DNA of 64,000 nt from Spirochaetales bacterium Spiro_07. GTDB lineage: Bacteria > Spirochaetota > Spirochaetia > Treponematales > Treponemataceae. The notes under the pieces are model-generated. The model was not told the DNA's origin and did not search any database. It worked only from the letters and a program-made list of their open reading frames with translations. Of this stretch, positions 3,067-15,901 are shown in pieces (within the stretch, counting starts at the first letter, position 1; each line of letters starts with the position of its first letter). A program made the position numbers and the translations under genes. Location: contig LVBI01000013.1 of NCBI GenBank assembly GCA_001603145.1, positions 1-64,000 of the forward strand. The letters are read 5' to 3'.

Positions 3067-3120
3067 GAAATGCGCCCCTTGCAGAATAATTGCTTGCAGT
3101 TTAGCTTTTTTTTTAGTTTC

Positions 3121-3225
3121 TGTCACCTAGAATTTGCTTTCTGCCATACCGAACTGGCTTTATTTCATTCTGAACTTGCTTTGTGTCACCTCGAATTTGC
3201 TTTATGTCATCCCGAATTTAGTTCG
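3121..3225. repeat. Five imperfect 21-bp tandem repeats
   Basis: Five consecutive 21-bp units at 3121, 3142, 3163, 3184 and 3205, each of the form TGTCAYCCYGAAYTTGCTTT with a few substitutions. The last unit merges into the left end of a dispersed GTCAT repeat. The period is a multiple of three, so a spurious heptad peptide reads through it, but there is no ribosome site or homologous protein. It lies upstream of the ECF gene. Confidence 0.8.
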
Positions 3226-3294
3226 GGATCTCTATGCATCTATAGCGCAGATGCTTAGCTGAAAGCCGTCGAAGACTATCAAGTTCAGTATGGC
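3205..3294. repeat. Dispersed repeat with GTCAT inverted ends, copy B
   Basis: Starts with TGTCATCCCGAATTTAGTTC, immediately followed by its own local complement (CCCGAA...TTCGGG). It ends with AAGTTCAGTATGGC, an imperfect complement of the left end. The internal AGCTGAAAGCCG block is shared with copy C at 15714. Confidence 0.65.
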
Positions 3295-5533: not shown

Positions 5534-5620
5534 GTTTTGCACTTGCCTAATCTACGATTTGGGAATTATCTGGCAAAACGGCCAACTTTGCGCTAAGCGC
5601 AAAGTTGTAAAGGGTGCACA
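5534..5620 (+). repeat. Two-hairpin repeat element, copy 1
   Basis: The 87-bp copy begins 3 bp after the chemoreceptor stop. Stem P1 is GTTTTGC (5534-5540) with GCAAAAC (5573-5579), enclosing a loop with ATCTAC (5550-5555) and ATCT. Stem P2 follows directly: CAACTTTGCGCT (5583-5594) with AGCGCAAAGTTG (5596-5607). The copy ends at a TGCACA motif (5615-5620). The other copies share the order, spacing and loop motif but use different stem bases. P2 may also terminate the chemoreceptor transcript. Confidence 0.75.
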
Positions 5621-5652: not shown

Positions 5653-6834
5653 CTAGTTTTTGGGTGCAACGCCATGCGAAATAAGCATGGCGTTCAGTCT
5701 GCGCAATGCTTCTTTGATTTTGGCTATATCGGTGGCGTAGCAGCAACGGATAAAGCCTTCGCCGCCCGCGCCGAAGCATGTGCCTGGAACGACGGCCACG
5801 CTGTATTTTTCGATTGCTTCTGTGGCGAACTGCTCAGACGTCATGCCCGAAGATCTTATGTCCGGGAACATGTAGAACGCGCCTTCAGGCTCGTTGCACG
5901 GCAAGCCCATGTCGATGAAAGCTTTGTACATTATGTTGCGACGCTGCTGATAGCTTATGCGCATCTTCTCAACTTCTGCCCAGCCGTGGCGAAGCCCTTC
6001 GGCTGCGGCGTACTGGCTGAAAATCGGTGGACAAATCGAATTATATGCGTGAAGCTTGCAGCATTGCACGAGCAGATCATGCGGCGCGGCAATATAGCCG
6101 ATTCGCCAGCCTGTCATGGCAAACGCTTTTGAGAAGCCGTTGAAAATAATTGCATAATCTTTCATGCCGGGGAATTTTCCGATTGATGTGTGCTTGTGTC
6201 CGTCATACAAAAGCTCGCAGTAAATTTCATCGCTCAAGCACCAAATCTGATGCTTCTGCACAACTTTCGCGATTTTCTCAAGCTCTTCAGCCGGAATTAT
6301 GCGGCCGGTCGGGTTGCTCGGCGAACAGAACATTACGGCTTTTGTCTTTGGCGTGCAAGCCGCTTCTATCTGCTCGGCAGTCGGGTAAAAGCCGTTCACG
6401 CTTGTGTCAAGGTGAATAACTTTTGCATCGCACAAAGTTGCAAGCGGCTGGTAGCTTACGTAGCAGGGCTCGCAGACGATGATTTCATCGCCCGGGTTGA
6501 GAATTGCGCGCAAAACAAGGTCGAGTGCTTCAGAAGCACCGATTGTCGGCAGAATTTCAGCTTTCGGGTCATAAAAAAGCTCGTAACGTTTCAGATATTC
6601 TGCAATTTCTTCGCGCAGTTCAATTAAGCCCCAGTTTGACGTATAAGAGGTGTGGCCCTTTTCAAGATGATAAAAAGCTTCTTCGCGCACAACCCACGGC
6701 GTAGAAAAGTCCGGCTCGCCTACGCCCAGCGAGATGATGTCGTCATGCCCGATGCAAAGCTCAAAGAATTTTCTAATTCCCGAAGGCGGGATGCCCATCA
6801 TCTTGCTTGAGAATTTATCGTTTCTGTCGTTCAT
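5653..6834 (-). CDS. PLP-dependent aminotransferase, class I/II
   Basis: A 393-residue fold-type I aminotransferase that transfers an amino group from an amino acid to a 2-oxo acid using pyridoxal phosphate. Visible marks are LGVGEPDFSTP near the start, TIGASEALDL, the SNPTGR loop, the LSDEIY aspartate that holds the cofactor nitrogen, and the Schiff-base lysine in NGFSKAFAMTGWRIGY. It resembles the aspartate/PatA group, but the amino-acid preference is not decidable. Its ATG shares one base with the stop of the preceding Lrp-type gene (TAATG), so the two are translationally coupled and the regulator probably controls this enzyme or its substrate pool. Confidence 0.9.
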   Translation of the reverse strand: MNDRNDKFSSKMMGIPPSGIRKFFELCIGHDDIISLGVGEPDFSTPWVVREEAFYHLEKGHTSYTSNWGLIELREEIAEYLKRYELFYDPKAEILPTIGASEALDLVLRAILNPGDEIIVCEPCYVSYQPLATLCDAKVIHLDTSVNGFYPTAEQIEAACTPKTKAVMFCSPSNPTGRIIPAEELEKIAKVVQKHQIWCLSDEIYCELLYDGHKHTSIGKFPGMKDYAIIFNGFSKAFAMTGWRIGYIAAPHDLLVQCCKLHAYNSICPPIFSQYAAAEGLRHGWAEVEKMRISYQQRRNIMYKAFIDMGLPCNEPEGAFYMFPDIRSSGMTSEQFATEAIEKYSVAVVPGTCFGAGGEGFIRCCYATDIAKIKEALRRLNAMLISHGVAPKN

Positions 6835-7319
6835 TAAGCCTGAACTCCTTCGCGGTTGTCGCGCTCGCTTTCAACATAAACTATGTCGTTTTCTTTGTAA
6901 GTCTTGAGCACGAAGTTCGTCTTTGTTGAGCGCACGCCTTCAAGAGTTGAAAGCTTTGACGAAACGAAAAGTGCGACGTCTTTGAGAGAATCGCCTTCGA
7001 TGATAATCTTAAAATCGTAGCCGCCGCTCATAAGATAAAGCGACTTGACTTGCGGAAAGCGGTAAATGCGGTCTGCAATTGCGTCAAAACCGTGCTCACG
7101 CTGCGGCTGCACCTGAATCTGGATTTCTGCACAGACTTTTTCCTTTGTTTCAAGGTCTTTCTCTGGGTTTACGATTGCCGAATATTTGAGAATTACGCCG
7201 TCGTCTTCAAACTTCTTGATGATTGATGCGACTTCTTCCGGTGTCTTTTTTGTCATTGCGGCTATATCGTCGGCTGTAAGCCGGGCGTTTTCTTTCAACA
7301 AATTTAAGATTTCTTCCAT
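6834..7319 (-). CDS. Lrp/AsnC-family transcriptional regulator
   Basis: A 161-residue regulator. An N-terminal winged helix-turn-helix (ILNLLKENARLTADDIA ... VASIIKKFEDDGVI) is followed by a RAM/ligand-sensing domain with the glycine turn LMSGGYDFKIII. Lrp-family proteins form octamers or dimers and sense amino acids. GGAGG about 10 nt upstream selects the MEEILNLL start, and the extra 15 codons upstream have no support. It is cotranscribed and one-base overlapped with the aminotransferase. Regulator-aminotransferase pairing suggests local feedback by an amino acid, which is inference. Confidence 0.88.
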   Translation of the reverse strand: MEEILNLLKENARLTADDIAAMTKKTPEEVASIIKKFEDDGVILKYSAIVNPEKDLETKEKVCAEIQIQVQPQREHGFDAIADRIYRFPQVKSLYLMSGGYDFKIIIEGDSLKDVALFVSSKLSTLEGVRSTKTNFVLKTYKENDIVYVESERDNREGVQA

Positions 7320-7503
7320 AATAAAGTGCCTCCCAAATCTAAGTCTGCAAAAAGCAGATTGCACGTTTAATTTGTCTGAAGTCTATCATAAAAGAGATTA
7401 AAGTAAAAGCGTTTGAGCCCGCCGTCCTTGCGAGCCATTGCAATAATGCAGGCTGACGCGAAAAGAGACCCTAAAAACCCCGTGATTAACTGAAAATAGG
7501 AGT

Positions 7504-7590
7504 TGTGCACAAAGACTGCCGGTTTTGCTCTGCAAAAGCGGCGCTTTTCGCAGATTGAGCTTTATTTGTAGATTAAGCTATTGCGAAAAG
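7504..7590 (-). repeat. Two-hairpin repeat element, copy 4 (minus orientation)
   Basis: Read on the minus strand: P1 CTTTTCGC (7583-7590) with GCGAAAAG (7544-7551), a loop with ATCTAC (7568-7573), then P2 TTTTGC-aga-GCAAAA (7523-7537) and a terminal TGTGCACA (7504-7511). It is 87 bp long and about 80 percent identical to copy 5 at 10422-10506, which lies in the same orientation on the other side of the lipoprotein gene. Confidence 0.75.
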
Positions 7591-7593
7591 AGA

Positions 7594-7627
7594 CTTGCTT
7601 TTATTGTATGTATACAATAAAAGCAAG
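7594..7627. promoter_or_regulatory. Perfect 16-bp inverted repeat before the lipoprotein gene
   Basis: CTTGCTTTTATTGTAT (7594-7609) and ATACAATAAAAGCAAG (7612-7627) are exact complements around a 2-bp centre. The palindrome touches the end of repeat copy 4 and ends 18 bp before the AAAGGAG ribosome site of the lipoprotein gene. It could be an operator, a leader hairpin controlling translation, or the end of an inserted cassette. Confidence 0.75.
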
Positions 7628-7657
7628 GGTTGGAAAAATGCATCAAAGGAGAAGTGC

Positions 7658-10225
7658 TTGTTTTCAAAAGATTTTTCCAGGAAGATTTCAATAGGACGTT
7701 ATAGAAACAAAACATATAAACATTTCATAAATCTGATAAAAACGGCTGTAATTCTGCTTGCTGTACTGCTTGTCGTTTCTTGTGGCGGAGGCGGAGGCGG
7801 CGGTGTAGTTTCATTTCAGAATGGACAACAGATACACAACGGCGGCGATTCAGGCGGCTGGGGCAACGGCAACCAGACCGGTGGCGGTTTCGGCGGTGGA
7901 GCAATTCAGAGCAGCAATCTTCTTATAAGTCAGATGGCCGCCCTTAACGGTATTTCAAAAGTAGAAATACATCTTAAAATAAACGGTGTTGACCAGGAAG
8001 TAATAGTTGCGGACGCAACGACAACAACCGATGTCCTTCCAAAAATTTCTGTCGGCGACAAAGTTTCCGGATACGCAGAAATATTTTTGCCGGAGGGTGA
8101 AACGCGTAGAGCCGATCTTGATGAAACCGAAATTGCACTTTCAAATACACTTAAATTCAAAGTTCCGTATAAATATAGAGCTCTTGATGCACCAGACGGA
8201 AGTACAGTAGATACCGGCACATATTTTGCAAGAGACGGAATTAACCTCTCGTTACATACAATCACACCAATTACAGGATGGAAATGTCTTAATGACAATA
8301 CCCGCCATATGGGCAGTCTTGTTGCAGGCGTGCGCGGTGACATAACACTTGTACCTCTATATGGCAGTGGAGAAGGTTTGAATGCCGTACCGAGCAAGCC
8401 CGTACTTTTTGCAAAACCAGACGCTTCATTCAATGATACGGCTACGCTGACCATATCCGGCGGTTCCGGCACATATATTGTAACGCCTGACTCTTCAAGT
8501 GCAAGCTTAATTGACTGTACAGGTTCCGGCTCATCTTGGACAGTTTCAATTAAGACTGATACAGCACTTGGAGCAACCGGCAAAGTTTGGTTTGCTGATA
8601 ATACAGCTGTAACTATAAACGTAACAGATAGTATAAGTGGCGAATCTGTAAACGCCAGCCTTACGCTCAAGAACAAGTATACACTTCAAATTGGTTATAG
8701 TGCCGATGTCTGGCCTAATACGCCTCTTGAATTCGATGCAGGTAATACATTCAATTTTTCTAGTGCAGACACATCTGGTTTTAGTCTGCCTTCAGGCCAA
8801 CAGATTGTGGCATATACAGATCCAAATACAGCTACCACATACAAAGCGACAGACAGCATAACTTTCAGTGATGCTTTAGGCAGAAGGGAGATTTATCTTG
8901 GTTCAAGAGTTGACTTTGCTATGACTGTTACCGGCGGAAAGGGCGACGGGGCAGCTCATACCGGTACGGCAGCAGACCCGTATATCCTTAAATATAATGG
9001 AACAGATGATACGGATGAAACAAAAATAACCGTTACGGTCACCAGCAATATCGGCTCTATTATTGCAAGAAATGCAGATATAACAGGAAAATTGACAATA
9101 GGTCATCCTGGTAGTACTACTGCAACGCAATATATCACAATTTATAAAACTGCTCTCGCAGCAACTGCCATACCGGCGGCGGGTTTGACGTATCAGATAG
9201 TAGTACGTGACTATCAGGAAGGTGTACCCGGAGCTGCTGATAATGATGCTTACTTGTACGCTTCAAAGACATTCTGGGTAAAGATACCGCAGCCGGAATT
9301 TACCGTTTCATTCAATACTGGTACTGGTGGCAGCACTGCGCCATCTGCCCAGACAATAACTTGTGGTAGCTATGCAACAGCACCAACTGCCAACCCGACA
9401 AATTCAGATACGTCTCTTGTTTTCGGCGGCTGGTACACATCAACTAATGGTGGAACTACGCTCTCTTCAACAGCGTATAACTTCGGTACAACACCTGTTA
9501 CAGAAGATATTACGCTTTACGCAAAATGGCTGCACACCAACTTTACGGGAACTGCTGCGGAATTTCTTGCTGCGGAATTTGTACCAAACAATACTGCAGC
9601 ATCTTCGTATACTGTCACGATTACTTCTGCTACCCCTAATGAGCTTTCAAGCATAGGAAAGGCACTTGGCAAATCGTCAGATTCACATTATAAGGGTGTG
9701 TATGTCAGCCTTGACCTCTCAGGATGCGGTGCAACATCAATACCTGCTTGGGCTTTCGCTGCATTAGACAATCTTTCTAGTCAAGCCGGCTCTGATATAG
9801 CAACATACCTTACGGGCGTCACCCTTCCGAGCGGAATAACAAGCATTGGACGAGCTGCGTTCTACGGCTGCGCAGGTCTTACAGGTTCTTTTACTATTCC
9901 AAGCACTGTGTCCGTAATAGAGGACTCTATATTTAACAATTGTACAGGCATTACAGGGTTGACTATTGCGAACGGTGTTCAGAAGATAGGCGGCTATGCA
10001 TTCGAAAATTGCACAAGTCTCACAGGTACTATTGTCATTCCCGATTCAGTTACTGAAATCGCCCCTGGTTCGTTTCATGGATGTACCAATATTGCTGATT
10101 TTAATGTAACTGGAATATGGGACGCACACTGGCTTGAAGCTACAGGTTCCATAACGACTGCAAACATAGCGCTTGATAAAGCGAAACTTTTGAACACCGG
10201 TTACTACTATATCCGCCAACCATGA
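7658..10225 (+). CDS. Large surface lipoprotein with Listeria-Bacteroides and BspA-type leucine-rich repeats
   Basis: An 855-residue predicted lipoprotein. The basic N-terminus and hydrophobic stretch end in a lipobox (LLVVSC, Cys about 42), followed by a poly-Gly/Asn spacer. The middle is Thr/Ser-rich and beta-like without a family I recognise. One Listeria-Bacteroides repeat (VSFNTGTGG ... FGGWYTSTNGG ... ITLYAKW) is followed by LRR_5/BspA repeats (IPSTVSVIEDSIFNNCTGI, VQKIGGYAFENCTSL and related units). Such proteins are usually surface adhesins. No ATG fits: the start is taken as TTG at 7658 because AAAGGAG lies 6 nt upstream; a TTG at 7595 lies inside the palindrome. Many ATA and ACA codons set it apart from neighbouring genes, and related repeats flank it, suggesting acquisition. 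Confidence 0.8.
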   Translation: MFSKDFSRKISIGRYRNKTYKHFINLIKTAVILLAVLLVVSCGGGGGGGVVSFQNGQQIHNGGDSGGWGNGNQTGGGFGGGAIQSSNLLISQMAALNGISKVEIHLKINGVDQEVIVADATTTTDVLPKISVGDKVSGYAEIFLPEGETRRADLDETEIALSNTLKFKVPYKYRALDAPDGSTVDTGTYFARDGINLSLHTITPITGWKCLNDNTRHMGSLVAGVRGDITLVPLYGSGEGLNAVPSKPVLFAKPDASFNDTATLTISGGSGTYIVTPDSSSASLIDCTGSGSSWTVSIKTDTALGATGKVWFADNTAVTINVTDSISGESVNASLTLKNKYTLQIGYSADVWPNTPLEFDAGNTFNFSSADTSGFSLPSGQQIVAYTDPNTATTYKATDSITFSDALGRREIYLGSRVDFAMTVTGGKGDGAAHTGTAADPYILKYNGTDDTDETKITVTVTSNIGSIIARNADITGKLTIGHPGSTTATQYITIYKTALAATAIPAAGLTYQIVVRDYQEGVPGAADNDAYLYASKTFWVKIPQPEFTVSFNTGTGGSTAPSAQTITCGSYATAPTANPTNSDTSLVFGGWYTSTNGGTTLSSTAYNFGTTPVTEDITLYAKWLHTNFTGTAAEFLAAEFVPNNTAASSYTVTITSATPNELSSIGKALGKSSDSHYKGVYVSLDLSGCGATSIPAWAFAALDNLSSQAGSDIATYLTGVTLPSGITSIGRAAFYGCAGLTGSFTIPSTVSVIEDSIFNNCTGITGLTIANGVQKIGGYAFENCTSLTGTIVIPDSVTEIAPGSFHGCTNIADFNVTGIWDAHWLEATGSITTANIALDKAKLLNTGYYYIRQP

Positions 10226-14574: not shown

Positions 14575-15678
14575 GTGGAAGAAAACGAAAAAGAAGCAGG
14601 GCAGGTTAATGAAACTGCCGCTGTTGAAACAGTTCAGACTGAAAGTGCGGCTGCTGCTGATGAAGGCAAAAAAGCAAAAAGCAAGAAACCTGCAATTTTG
14701 GGTGCAGTTGCTGCTGTTGTTATTGCTGCCGGCGGTGCAGTCGGTGCTTTCTTCGGACTGGACTTGAATGTTCCGGCTGCAACTGAATGGGTAAAAGACT
14801 ACGAAGCTGTTCAGACAACAGCTAAAGAAAGAAACAAGAACATTCTTCTGGCTTTTACCGGCACAACATGGGATGATACGTCTGCAGCCTTTGAAAAAGA
14901 CATCATGAACGACCAGGAATTCATCAAAAAGATGGGCAAGAAATTTGAGCTTGCGCAAATTGATATTCCTAGCGGTGAAAATGAAGTTTCTGAAGACGAA
15001 ATGCAGAAAATCTTTACATACGCAATGATGTACGGTCTTGAAACAACGCCGAGCTTTATTTTGATAAACACAGAAGGCGCAAGTTTTGGCTCGGTTGTGT
15101 ATTCACCTACAATGGGCTTGGAATCTGTGATTGAATCTGTTGATGAAGCAGAAAAAGCTTACAAAGACCTTGCAAAGCTTAAGGCAAATCTTGAAAAGGC
15201 GACCGGCGTAAAGAAAGTTCAGCTCATCGATGAGATTTATGAAAAGTCACCTGATGAAGAAAAAGCTAAGATGACAGATTATATCCTTGAAGTTCCAACT
15301 TTAGACCCTGAAAACAAGAGCGGCCTTCTTGGAAAATACAAGCTTCTTGCAGCTTATAGCGAAGCTGGGCTTTATATGCAGCGCGGTGACGTAATCAGCG
15401 CACGCGAGCTGCTGGTCAAAACGGCTGAAGATTCTTCTGTTGATCCAGAATATGCACAGGAAGCATTTTACACGGCTGCATACGTCACTGCTTTGAGCGG
15501 CATGATGACGACTCAGAAGGAAATCGACTATGTTTGCTCGTTAATCGAAAAAGCAATCAATGTTTATCCAGAAAGCGAACATATCGAAGACTTGAACCAG
15601 TTCCTTACACTTGTAAAGCAGCAGCCTGTTCAAGAAGAACCTGCTGAAAATGCAAGCGCTGCAAATACAGGCAAATAA
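14575..15678 (+). CDS. Membrane-anchored thioredoxin-fold protein without CxxC
   Basis: A 367-residue protein starting at GTG with AAAGGAG 6 nt upstream. An acidic Ala/Lys/Glu-rich cytoplasmic head (about 1-37) is followed by one membrane segment (AILGAVAAVVIAAGGAVGAF) and a periplasmic thioredoxin-like domain (NILLAFTGTTWDD, DIMNDQEFIKKM, a cis-proline context in GLETTPSFILI). The site that normally holds CxxC reads TTWD, so it cannot act as a dithiol oxidoreductase. A helical, TPR-like region follows (about 205-350). The fold may serve binding or assembly. No partner is evident in the neighbourhood. Confidence 0.7.
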   Translation: MEENEKEAGQVNETAAVETVQTESAAAADEGKKAKSKKPAILGAVAAVVIAAGGAVGAFFGLDLNVPAATEWVKDYEAVQTTAKERNKNILLAFTGTTWDDTSAAFEKDIMNDQEFIKKMGKKFELAQIDIPSGENEVSEDEMQKIFTYAMMYGLETTPSFILINTEGASFGSVVYSPTMGLESVIESVDEAEKAYKDLAKLKANLEKATGVKKVQLIDEIYEKSPDEEKAKMTDYILEVPTLDPENKSGLLGKYKLLAAYSEAGLYMQRGDVISARELLVKTAEDSSVDPEYAQEAFYTAAYVTALSGMMTTQKEIDYVCSLIEKAINVYPESEHIEDLNQFLTLVKQQPVQEEPAENASAANTGK

Positions 15679-15713
15679 CATTTCATAGGGCTGTCTAAAA
15701 ACTTCATGTCTAA

Positions 15714-15805
15714 TGTCATCCCGAACTTGGTTCGGGATCTCCGGGCTACCTCTGGTGCAGATGCTGAGCTGAAAGCCGCTAAAGGCTAATAAATTCAGCA
15801 TGACA
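15714..15805. repeat. Dispersed repeat with GTCAT inverted ends, copy C
   Basis: Begins TGTCATCCCGAACTTGGTTC and ends AATTCAGCATGACA, the imperfect complement. The internal CAGATGCTGAGCTGAAAGCC block matches copy B and, inverted, copy D. It is 92 bp long and fills the space before the first HlyC/CorC gene. Confidence 0.7.
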
Positions 15806-15901
15806 CTATGCAACGAACTTATTGGACAGACCCGATTAAGCCGCCGTTTGTGCAATGTGCAAGCGGCGCGCCTTGCTTTCAGCTTTTAGGAGGCTGCCTT
15901 T

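Follow-up and report, generated by a model that had tools for sequence, protein, structure and literature searches.

A perfect 34-bp palindrome before a spirochaete lipoprotein gene: a predicted promoter-overlapping control site with locally extended arms

The perfect 34-bp palindrome upstream of a lipoprotein gene of Spirochaetales bacterium Spiro_07 is most likely an ordinary control site overlapping the promoter, as predicted from the sequence, with a palindrome that has been extended locally. Readings of the site as an inversion end or as a terminator are not supported. If this interpretation is true, the strikingly perfect palindrome is part old control site and part recent copying error. 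It would also mean that these spirochaete lipoprotein genes swap their control-and-export ends as units, an exchange that would help explain the selective expression of a large surface-protein family. The site lies in a stretch of 64,000 nucleotides, referred to here as the window, with the following features.

7594 to 7627, no strand assigned: perfect palindrome of 34 bp, with 16-bp arms and the centre GT (7610-7611), from the sequence and a simulated chance level
7601 to 7620, no strand assigned: 20-bp core TTATTGTATGTATACAATAA, which recurs with one centre base changed before a related lipoprotein gene in genome G003
7621 to 7627, no strand assigned: outermost bases of the right arm, AAGCAAG, which match the reverse complement of 7594-7600 exactly
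7583 to 7594, plus strand: end of an interspersed repeat (GCGAAAAGAGAC), from the sequence and a comparison of upstream regions
7595 to 7600, plus strand: -35-like TTGCTT, from a by-eye alignment with five other upstream regions; missed by the consensus scan
7618 to 7623, plus strand: -10-like TAAAAG at 17-bp spacing, a hexamer chosen by eye with weak consensus
7613 to 7618, plus strand: alternative -10-like TACAAT (5/6), from promoter scoring; mirrored on the minus strand at 7608-7603
7645 to 7651, plus strand: ribosome-binding site AAAGGAG, from the sequence
7658 to 10225, plus strand: lipoprotein gene; the open frame is listed from TTG 7595, and the start TTG 7658 is the analyst's choice
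6834 to 7319, minus strand: divergent Lrp/AsnC-family regulator gene; a GTG start is listed at 7364, and ATG 7319 was chosen

The arms, CTTGCTTTTATTGTAT at 7594-7609 and ATACAATAAAAGCAAG at 7612-7627, are 100% complementary and enclose two nucleotides, GT. Direct sequence comparison bears out the exact palindrome of the original prediction, with its 16-bp arms and 2-bp centre, and its rarity by chance was also confirmed. Among 100 first-order Markov sequences of window length, the longest arm measured 8-12 bp, most commonly 10 bp (55 of 100) and 12 bp in only two, against the 16 bp observed. The palindrome is real and non-random, beyond what chance produces. No other perfect hairpin of the window is as long when loops of up to 10 are allowed. 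The runner-up, at 5583-5607 with 12-bp arms (CAACTTTGCGCTAAGCGCAAAGTTG), resembles hairpins at related loci.

The palindrome is located within the 338-nt gap between the chosen starts of the Lrp/AsnC-type gene (7319) and the lipoprotein gene (7658). It had been placed 18 nt before AAAGGAG; the proximity holds and the gap is 17 nt. The product of the lipoprotein gene contains a long leader followed by an LVVSC-GGGGGGG lipobox (placed by eye), and its domains are List_Bact_rpt (Flg_new) and a BspA-type LRR_5 leucine-rich region. The 12-nt sequence GCGAAAAGAGAC forms a direct repeat with copies at 7458-7469 and 7583-7594, the second of which shares one base with the palindrome. Elsewhere in the window, at 3100-3258 and 15541-15855, reading frames contain repeats such as CHPEF and EIPNQVRDD; these are presumably the familiar spurious translations of interspersed repeats.

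The own genome (G000; 2.69 Mb in 68 contigs, 85% complete) contains no second full copy of the 34-mer at up to three mismatches, and searches of it with a 22-bp core, an 18-bp core and a single arm returned no second full palindrome. A shorter core, TTGTATNNATACAA, is found exactly, once each, in four of the eight genus genomes searched (G000, G003, G005 and G006). The flanks of the G005 and G006 copies are unlike the window, as judged by eye on the sequence without gene calls. The copy in G003, another species of the same genus, is a gap-free palindrome of 20 bp, TTATTGTATATATACAATAA, at the same place; the ribosome site and leader that follow are those of the window, and so is the spacing to them. 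Among 274 family genomes, the 20-bp core occurs exactly in two, G000 and G003, in both cases upstream of lipoprotein genes that share the leader.

Sites with one mismatch to the core were recorded once each in six more of the 274 genomes, where the backwards control matches two genomes. Those in G062 and G283 fall inside reading frames and were set aside. Those in G033 and G168 were judged from sequence alone, reading frames being listed for the four others. In G264 and G267, two genomes of another genus, the site belongs to a longer palindrome just before an operon and was treated as unrelated. This longer palindrome, GTATTATTGTATTAATACGATAATAC, spans 26 bp, is perfect but for one pair, and lies directly before what is taken to be an ABC-transporter operon (L071, G264:C33:5922, read on the strand away from the operon; L072, G267:C58:1152). 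It is likely to be an operator in its own right. None of the viral contigs searched contains the extended core, in which 22 bases are specified.

The palindrome likely covers the -35/-10 region of the lipoprotein gene. A by-eye alignment of the window with the upstream regions of three paralogous genes, the G003 gene and a gene on contig C6 of the own genome places comparable hexamers before each: TTGCTT-17-TATAAT (G000:C33), TTTACT-18-TATAAT (G006:C32), TTGCAT-17-TACGAT (G001:C109), TTGCTT-17-TAAGAT (G003) and TTGCTT-17-TAAATT (C6). The C6 gene, presumably V-ATPase-like, has a half-site before it that was used for promoter comparison only. Of 18 lipoprotein-family regions, six carry the sequence CGAAAAGA, the end of the interspersed repeat, in the 400 nt that precede the lipobox, and in five of those six it starts 10-14 nt before the -35-like hexamer. 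The 18 regions were chosen among similarity matches, from 21 less L037 (at a contig end) and L036 and L048 (lipobox unplaced at that stage). Against promoter overlap, the -10-like TAAAAG is poor, and a consensus promoter scan called no promoter at the palindrome.

The reading as an operator-like control site overlapping the promoter, with outer arms added locally, is favoured, though tentatively, since a related gene has the inner 20 bp at the corresponding position upstream. The -35-like hexamer would belong to the left arm and the -10-like hexamer to the right. RNA polymerase would then have to contend with a symmetrical, dimeric protein bound to the inner 20 bp, TTATTGTATRTATACAATAA, and the lipoprotein gene would thereby be repressed or tuned. 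The core, ribosome site and signal-peptide leader would travel as one 5′ cassette among lipoprotein genes whose bodies differ. The seven outer pairs would have been added locally, most probably when an existing inverted repeat underwent a single template switch.

Dyad symmetry is kept at the same place in the related G003 locus, two copies being known in all; plain recent homology may account for this conservation. Core sites at up to three mismatches number 31 in G000, including 12 copies of an unrelated interspersed hairpin (backwards control 13), and 22 in G003, including three such copies (backwards control 15). Once the palindrome and the hairpin copies are removed, 18 sites are left in each genome, near background. 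At up to two mismatches, three sites besides the palindrome occur in G000 and none in G003; the three, each differing at two positions, fall within or next to unrelated genes, the gene after one of them being presumably Rex-like. No regulon was found in G000 or G003 by the core search at up to three mismatches, and no regulator gene common to the neighbourhoods of the window and G003 palindromes was seen. A regulator, if one exists, would then serve this gene alone or have its own gene elsewhere. The original suggestion of an operator thus gains from the recurrence of the inner 20 bp and is weakened by the missing regulon and common neighbouring regulator. Among the matches listed, neither ATTGTATACAAT nor TTGTATACAA occurs literally in the operator-motif literature, and titles and abstract starts of the Treponema literature contain nothing on such a site.

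The interspersed element among the core-search sites is a nested hairpin around TGTTGTATNGAAACTATA, with 12 copies in G000 (C7:10261, C14:2137, C14:41999, C15:46500, C15:48268, C15:50371, C28:43676, C30:74016, C31:348, C39:406, C40:15339 and C68:14286) and three in G003. Two of these copies fold with their surroundings at -28.3 and -60.8 kcal/mol, and five loci carrying the element gave no Rfam match for it.

The outer arms most likely arose by template switching, to judge from the comparison of G000 with G003. Over 7595-7657, the two differ at one position in the first 26 nt (-35 and core), at nine in the next 13 and at three in the last 24. A 13-nt window with at least nine differences was obtained in 12 of 20,000 permutations, the window size having been set after the data were seen. 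The segment 7621-7627 agrees with the reverse complement of 7594-7600 at seven of seven positions in G000, against two of seven for the G003 counterpart and its own left arm. The seven bases that complete the palindrome in G000 copy its left arm exactly in reverse complement. With two sequences the direction of change is a deduction, and G003 could instead have lost the arm. PMC7202029 describes, for E. coli, how replicative template switching at a quasipalindrome yields such arm-copying changes, and PMC8794818 describes the same process for RNA genes.

This process alone might account for the site. A chance-symmetrical A+T-rich promoter segment, completed by template switching (quasipalindrome correction), would then have no dedicated function and nothing would bind it. 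This is a doubtful explanation, though one with some weight. It agrees with the clustered right-flank differences and the exact copying of the left arm, with a palindrome at one genome place only and no regulon found, and with a mechanism known from E. coli and RNA genes, as documented in PMC7202029 and PMC8794818. However, G003 already has its gap-free 20-bp palindrome at the same place, with an arm of 10 bp, the length most often reached as the maximum in the simulated 64-kb sequences, and its core differs from that of G000 by one centre base only.

Coding sequence was tried as an explanation and rejected. The frame is open through the palindrome from TTG 7595 in the window and is also open in G003. 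A coding signature is absent, the differences between G000 and G003 falling 5, 4 and 4 by codon position over these 21 codons, against 4, 3 and 7 over 120 nt of aligned leader.

A hairpin in the 5′ leader of the mRNA is an unlikely alternative role. From an upstream transcript start, the stem would protect the mRNA or tune how readily the ribosome site, 17 nt farther on, is reached. The 34-mer folds at -16.7 kcal/mol into a stem of 15 pairs capped by a 4-nt loop, a 118-nt fold scores z -3.64 with none of 200 shuffles as good, and AAAGGAG stays outside the stem. Yet the outer pairs are broken in G003 with no compensatory change between the two sequences, the 34-nt counterpart reaches -6.5 kcal/mol, and the promoter-like hexamers overlap the stem. 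No Rfam family was matched at the site; Rfam reports three tRNAs and nothing else in the window, and no match in the seven loci examined. The very stable RNA hairpin first proposed folds well in the window sequence, whereas the long stem is not conserved in G003, the one related copy.

A function as an intrinsic terminator or attenuator, chiefly for minus-strand transcripts, is very improbable. The stem is listed as terminator-like on the minus strand, with the tail TCTCTTTTCG, but this tail is interrupted, and on the plus strand GGGTTGG rather than a T run follows the stem. Four of the 15 pairs counted are G-C, so that neither strand presents a G+C-rich stem followed by a T run. In addition, no likely minus-strand gene ends just before the palindrome.

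The operator reading includes a 5′ cassette, for which the neighbouring genes provide the evidence. The G003 locus has a neighbourhood unlike the window: the Lrp/AsnC-family gene is not adjacent, the gene upstream is presumably sigma-54-like, and the G003 lipoprotein gene runs off the contig end. Across leader residues 1-80, the window and G003 proteins are 59% identical. Over body residues 83-340, the window protein is 28% identical to that of G003 and 75% identical to that of G006:C39. Residues 1-60 of the window leader gave no significant match to the fetched G006:C39 DNA in all frames (best E 4.4). The syntenic relative G001:C42, with the same Lrp neighbour and a related lipoprotein, does not contain the palindrome. 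Since the leader is common with G003, the body is closer to G006:C39 and the neighbourhoods differ, the simplest reading is that core, ribosome site and leader have been exchanged among lipoprotein genes as a 5′ cassette, the joint probably lying close to the glycine tract that follows the lipobox.

A third copy of the cassette was found neither in the 274 family genomes nor in a genome-contig scan (1 relative/57 stretches). A family DNA search with the cassette returned G003 at high score and seven other genomes matching over 27-39 nt only. The interspersed repeat at 7530-7594, which ends in GCGAAAAGA, immediately precedes the -35-like hexamer in 5 of the 18 lipoprotein-family upstream regions and may have offered homology for the exchange. 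A more elaborate proposal, considered improbable, joins the two processes. A promoter-plus-leader cassette with a palindromic site would be swapped among the surface-lipoprotein genes of these spirochaetes, and template switching would act as a mutational switch. Completion of the palindrome would turn a TAAGAT-like -10 into TAAAAG, turning the gene down and creating a longer operator or hairpin; with the repeat tracts of its relatives, each lipoprotein gene would have its own mutational switch.

A role as an inversion or recombination end that would phase-vary a surface protein, also raised by the original prediction, is very improbable; in its favour stands the setting, a surface lipoprotein family with mosaic genes and exchanged 5′ cassettes. 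The arms lie 2 bp apart, leaving nothing to invert, no two inverted repeats flank a segment at the palindrome, and there is no second full copy at up to three mismatches. A search for the arm elsewhere in the own genome returned half-sites rather than a second palindrome: a single one at up to one mismatch, on another contig before an unrelated gene, and four on other contigs at up to two mismatches, against two for the backwards control. Phase variation of this protein family is plausible through simple-sequence tracts in relatives of the gene, not through the palindrome.

The 7-bp repeats and poly-G tracts of the relatives are plausibly the better candidates, judged on sequence. Perfect CAACAAG tandem repeats of 9.9, 7.3 and 7.9 copies occupy the 5′ ends of paralogous lipoprotein genes at G000:C33:1-1800 (L039), G006:C32:41200-42700 (L050) and G000:C64:1-700 (L037, starting at a contig end), respectively. 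In L039 and L050, no start codon of the lipoprotein frame precedes the lipobox, and the ATG upstream of the repeats reads another frame; these repeats are candidates for slipped-strand phase variation. Of 20 related regions scanned, six have a poly-G tract of 7-9 G right at the lipobox cysteine: G006:C39, C60, C50, C52 (21.0-22.6 kb) and C15, and G001:C42 (L048, L049, L051, L052, L053 and L057). In the four G006 genes with 8 G, the leader reads in frame into the body, and in G006:C39 (7 G) and G001:C42 (9 G) the frame changes between leader and body at the tract. Homopolymer phase variation and homopolymer error in draft assemblies are both candidate explanations. The window gene contains neither heptamer repeats nor a poly-G tract.

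With regard to known systems, the palindrome resembles invertible promoter switches in its inverted repeat before a surface protein gene, but it has no invertible segment. It also resembles repressor operators with dyad symmetry that overlap promoters, such as GntR-type sites. Like these, it is an A-T-rich perfect dyad of about 20 bp with GT...AC half-sites over the -35/-10 region. Unlike them, the window copy measures 34 bp and no regulon or common adjacent regulator was found. Bacterial bidirectional promoters, also the topic of PMC12825309, have starts 7-25 bp apart, mostly 18 bp, with coinciding -7T/-11A, according to PMC10268837. Like the promoters described there, the palindrome has mirrored -10-like hexamers on both strands, here TACAAT. 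Its hexamers, in contrast, point outward, and starts would be expected nearer 29 bp apart; this geometry, worked out by hand from the sequence, is not centred on the palindrome. The window case differs from documented template-switch products in consisting of two natural sequences only, with a deduced direction of change. It is similar to the quasipalindrome products described in PMC7202029 and PMC8794818 in that clustered changes copy one arm and turn an imperfect repeat into a perfect one.
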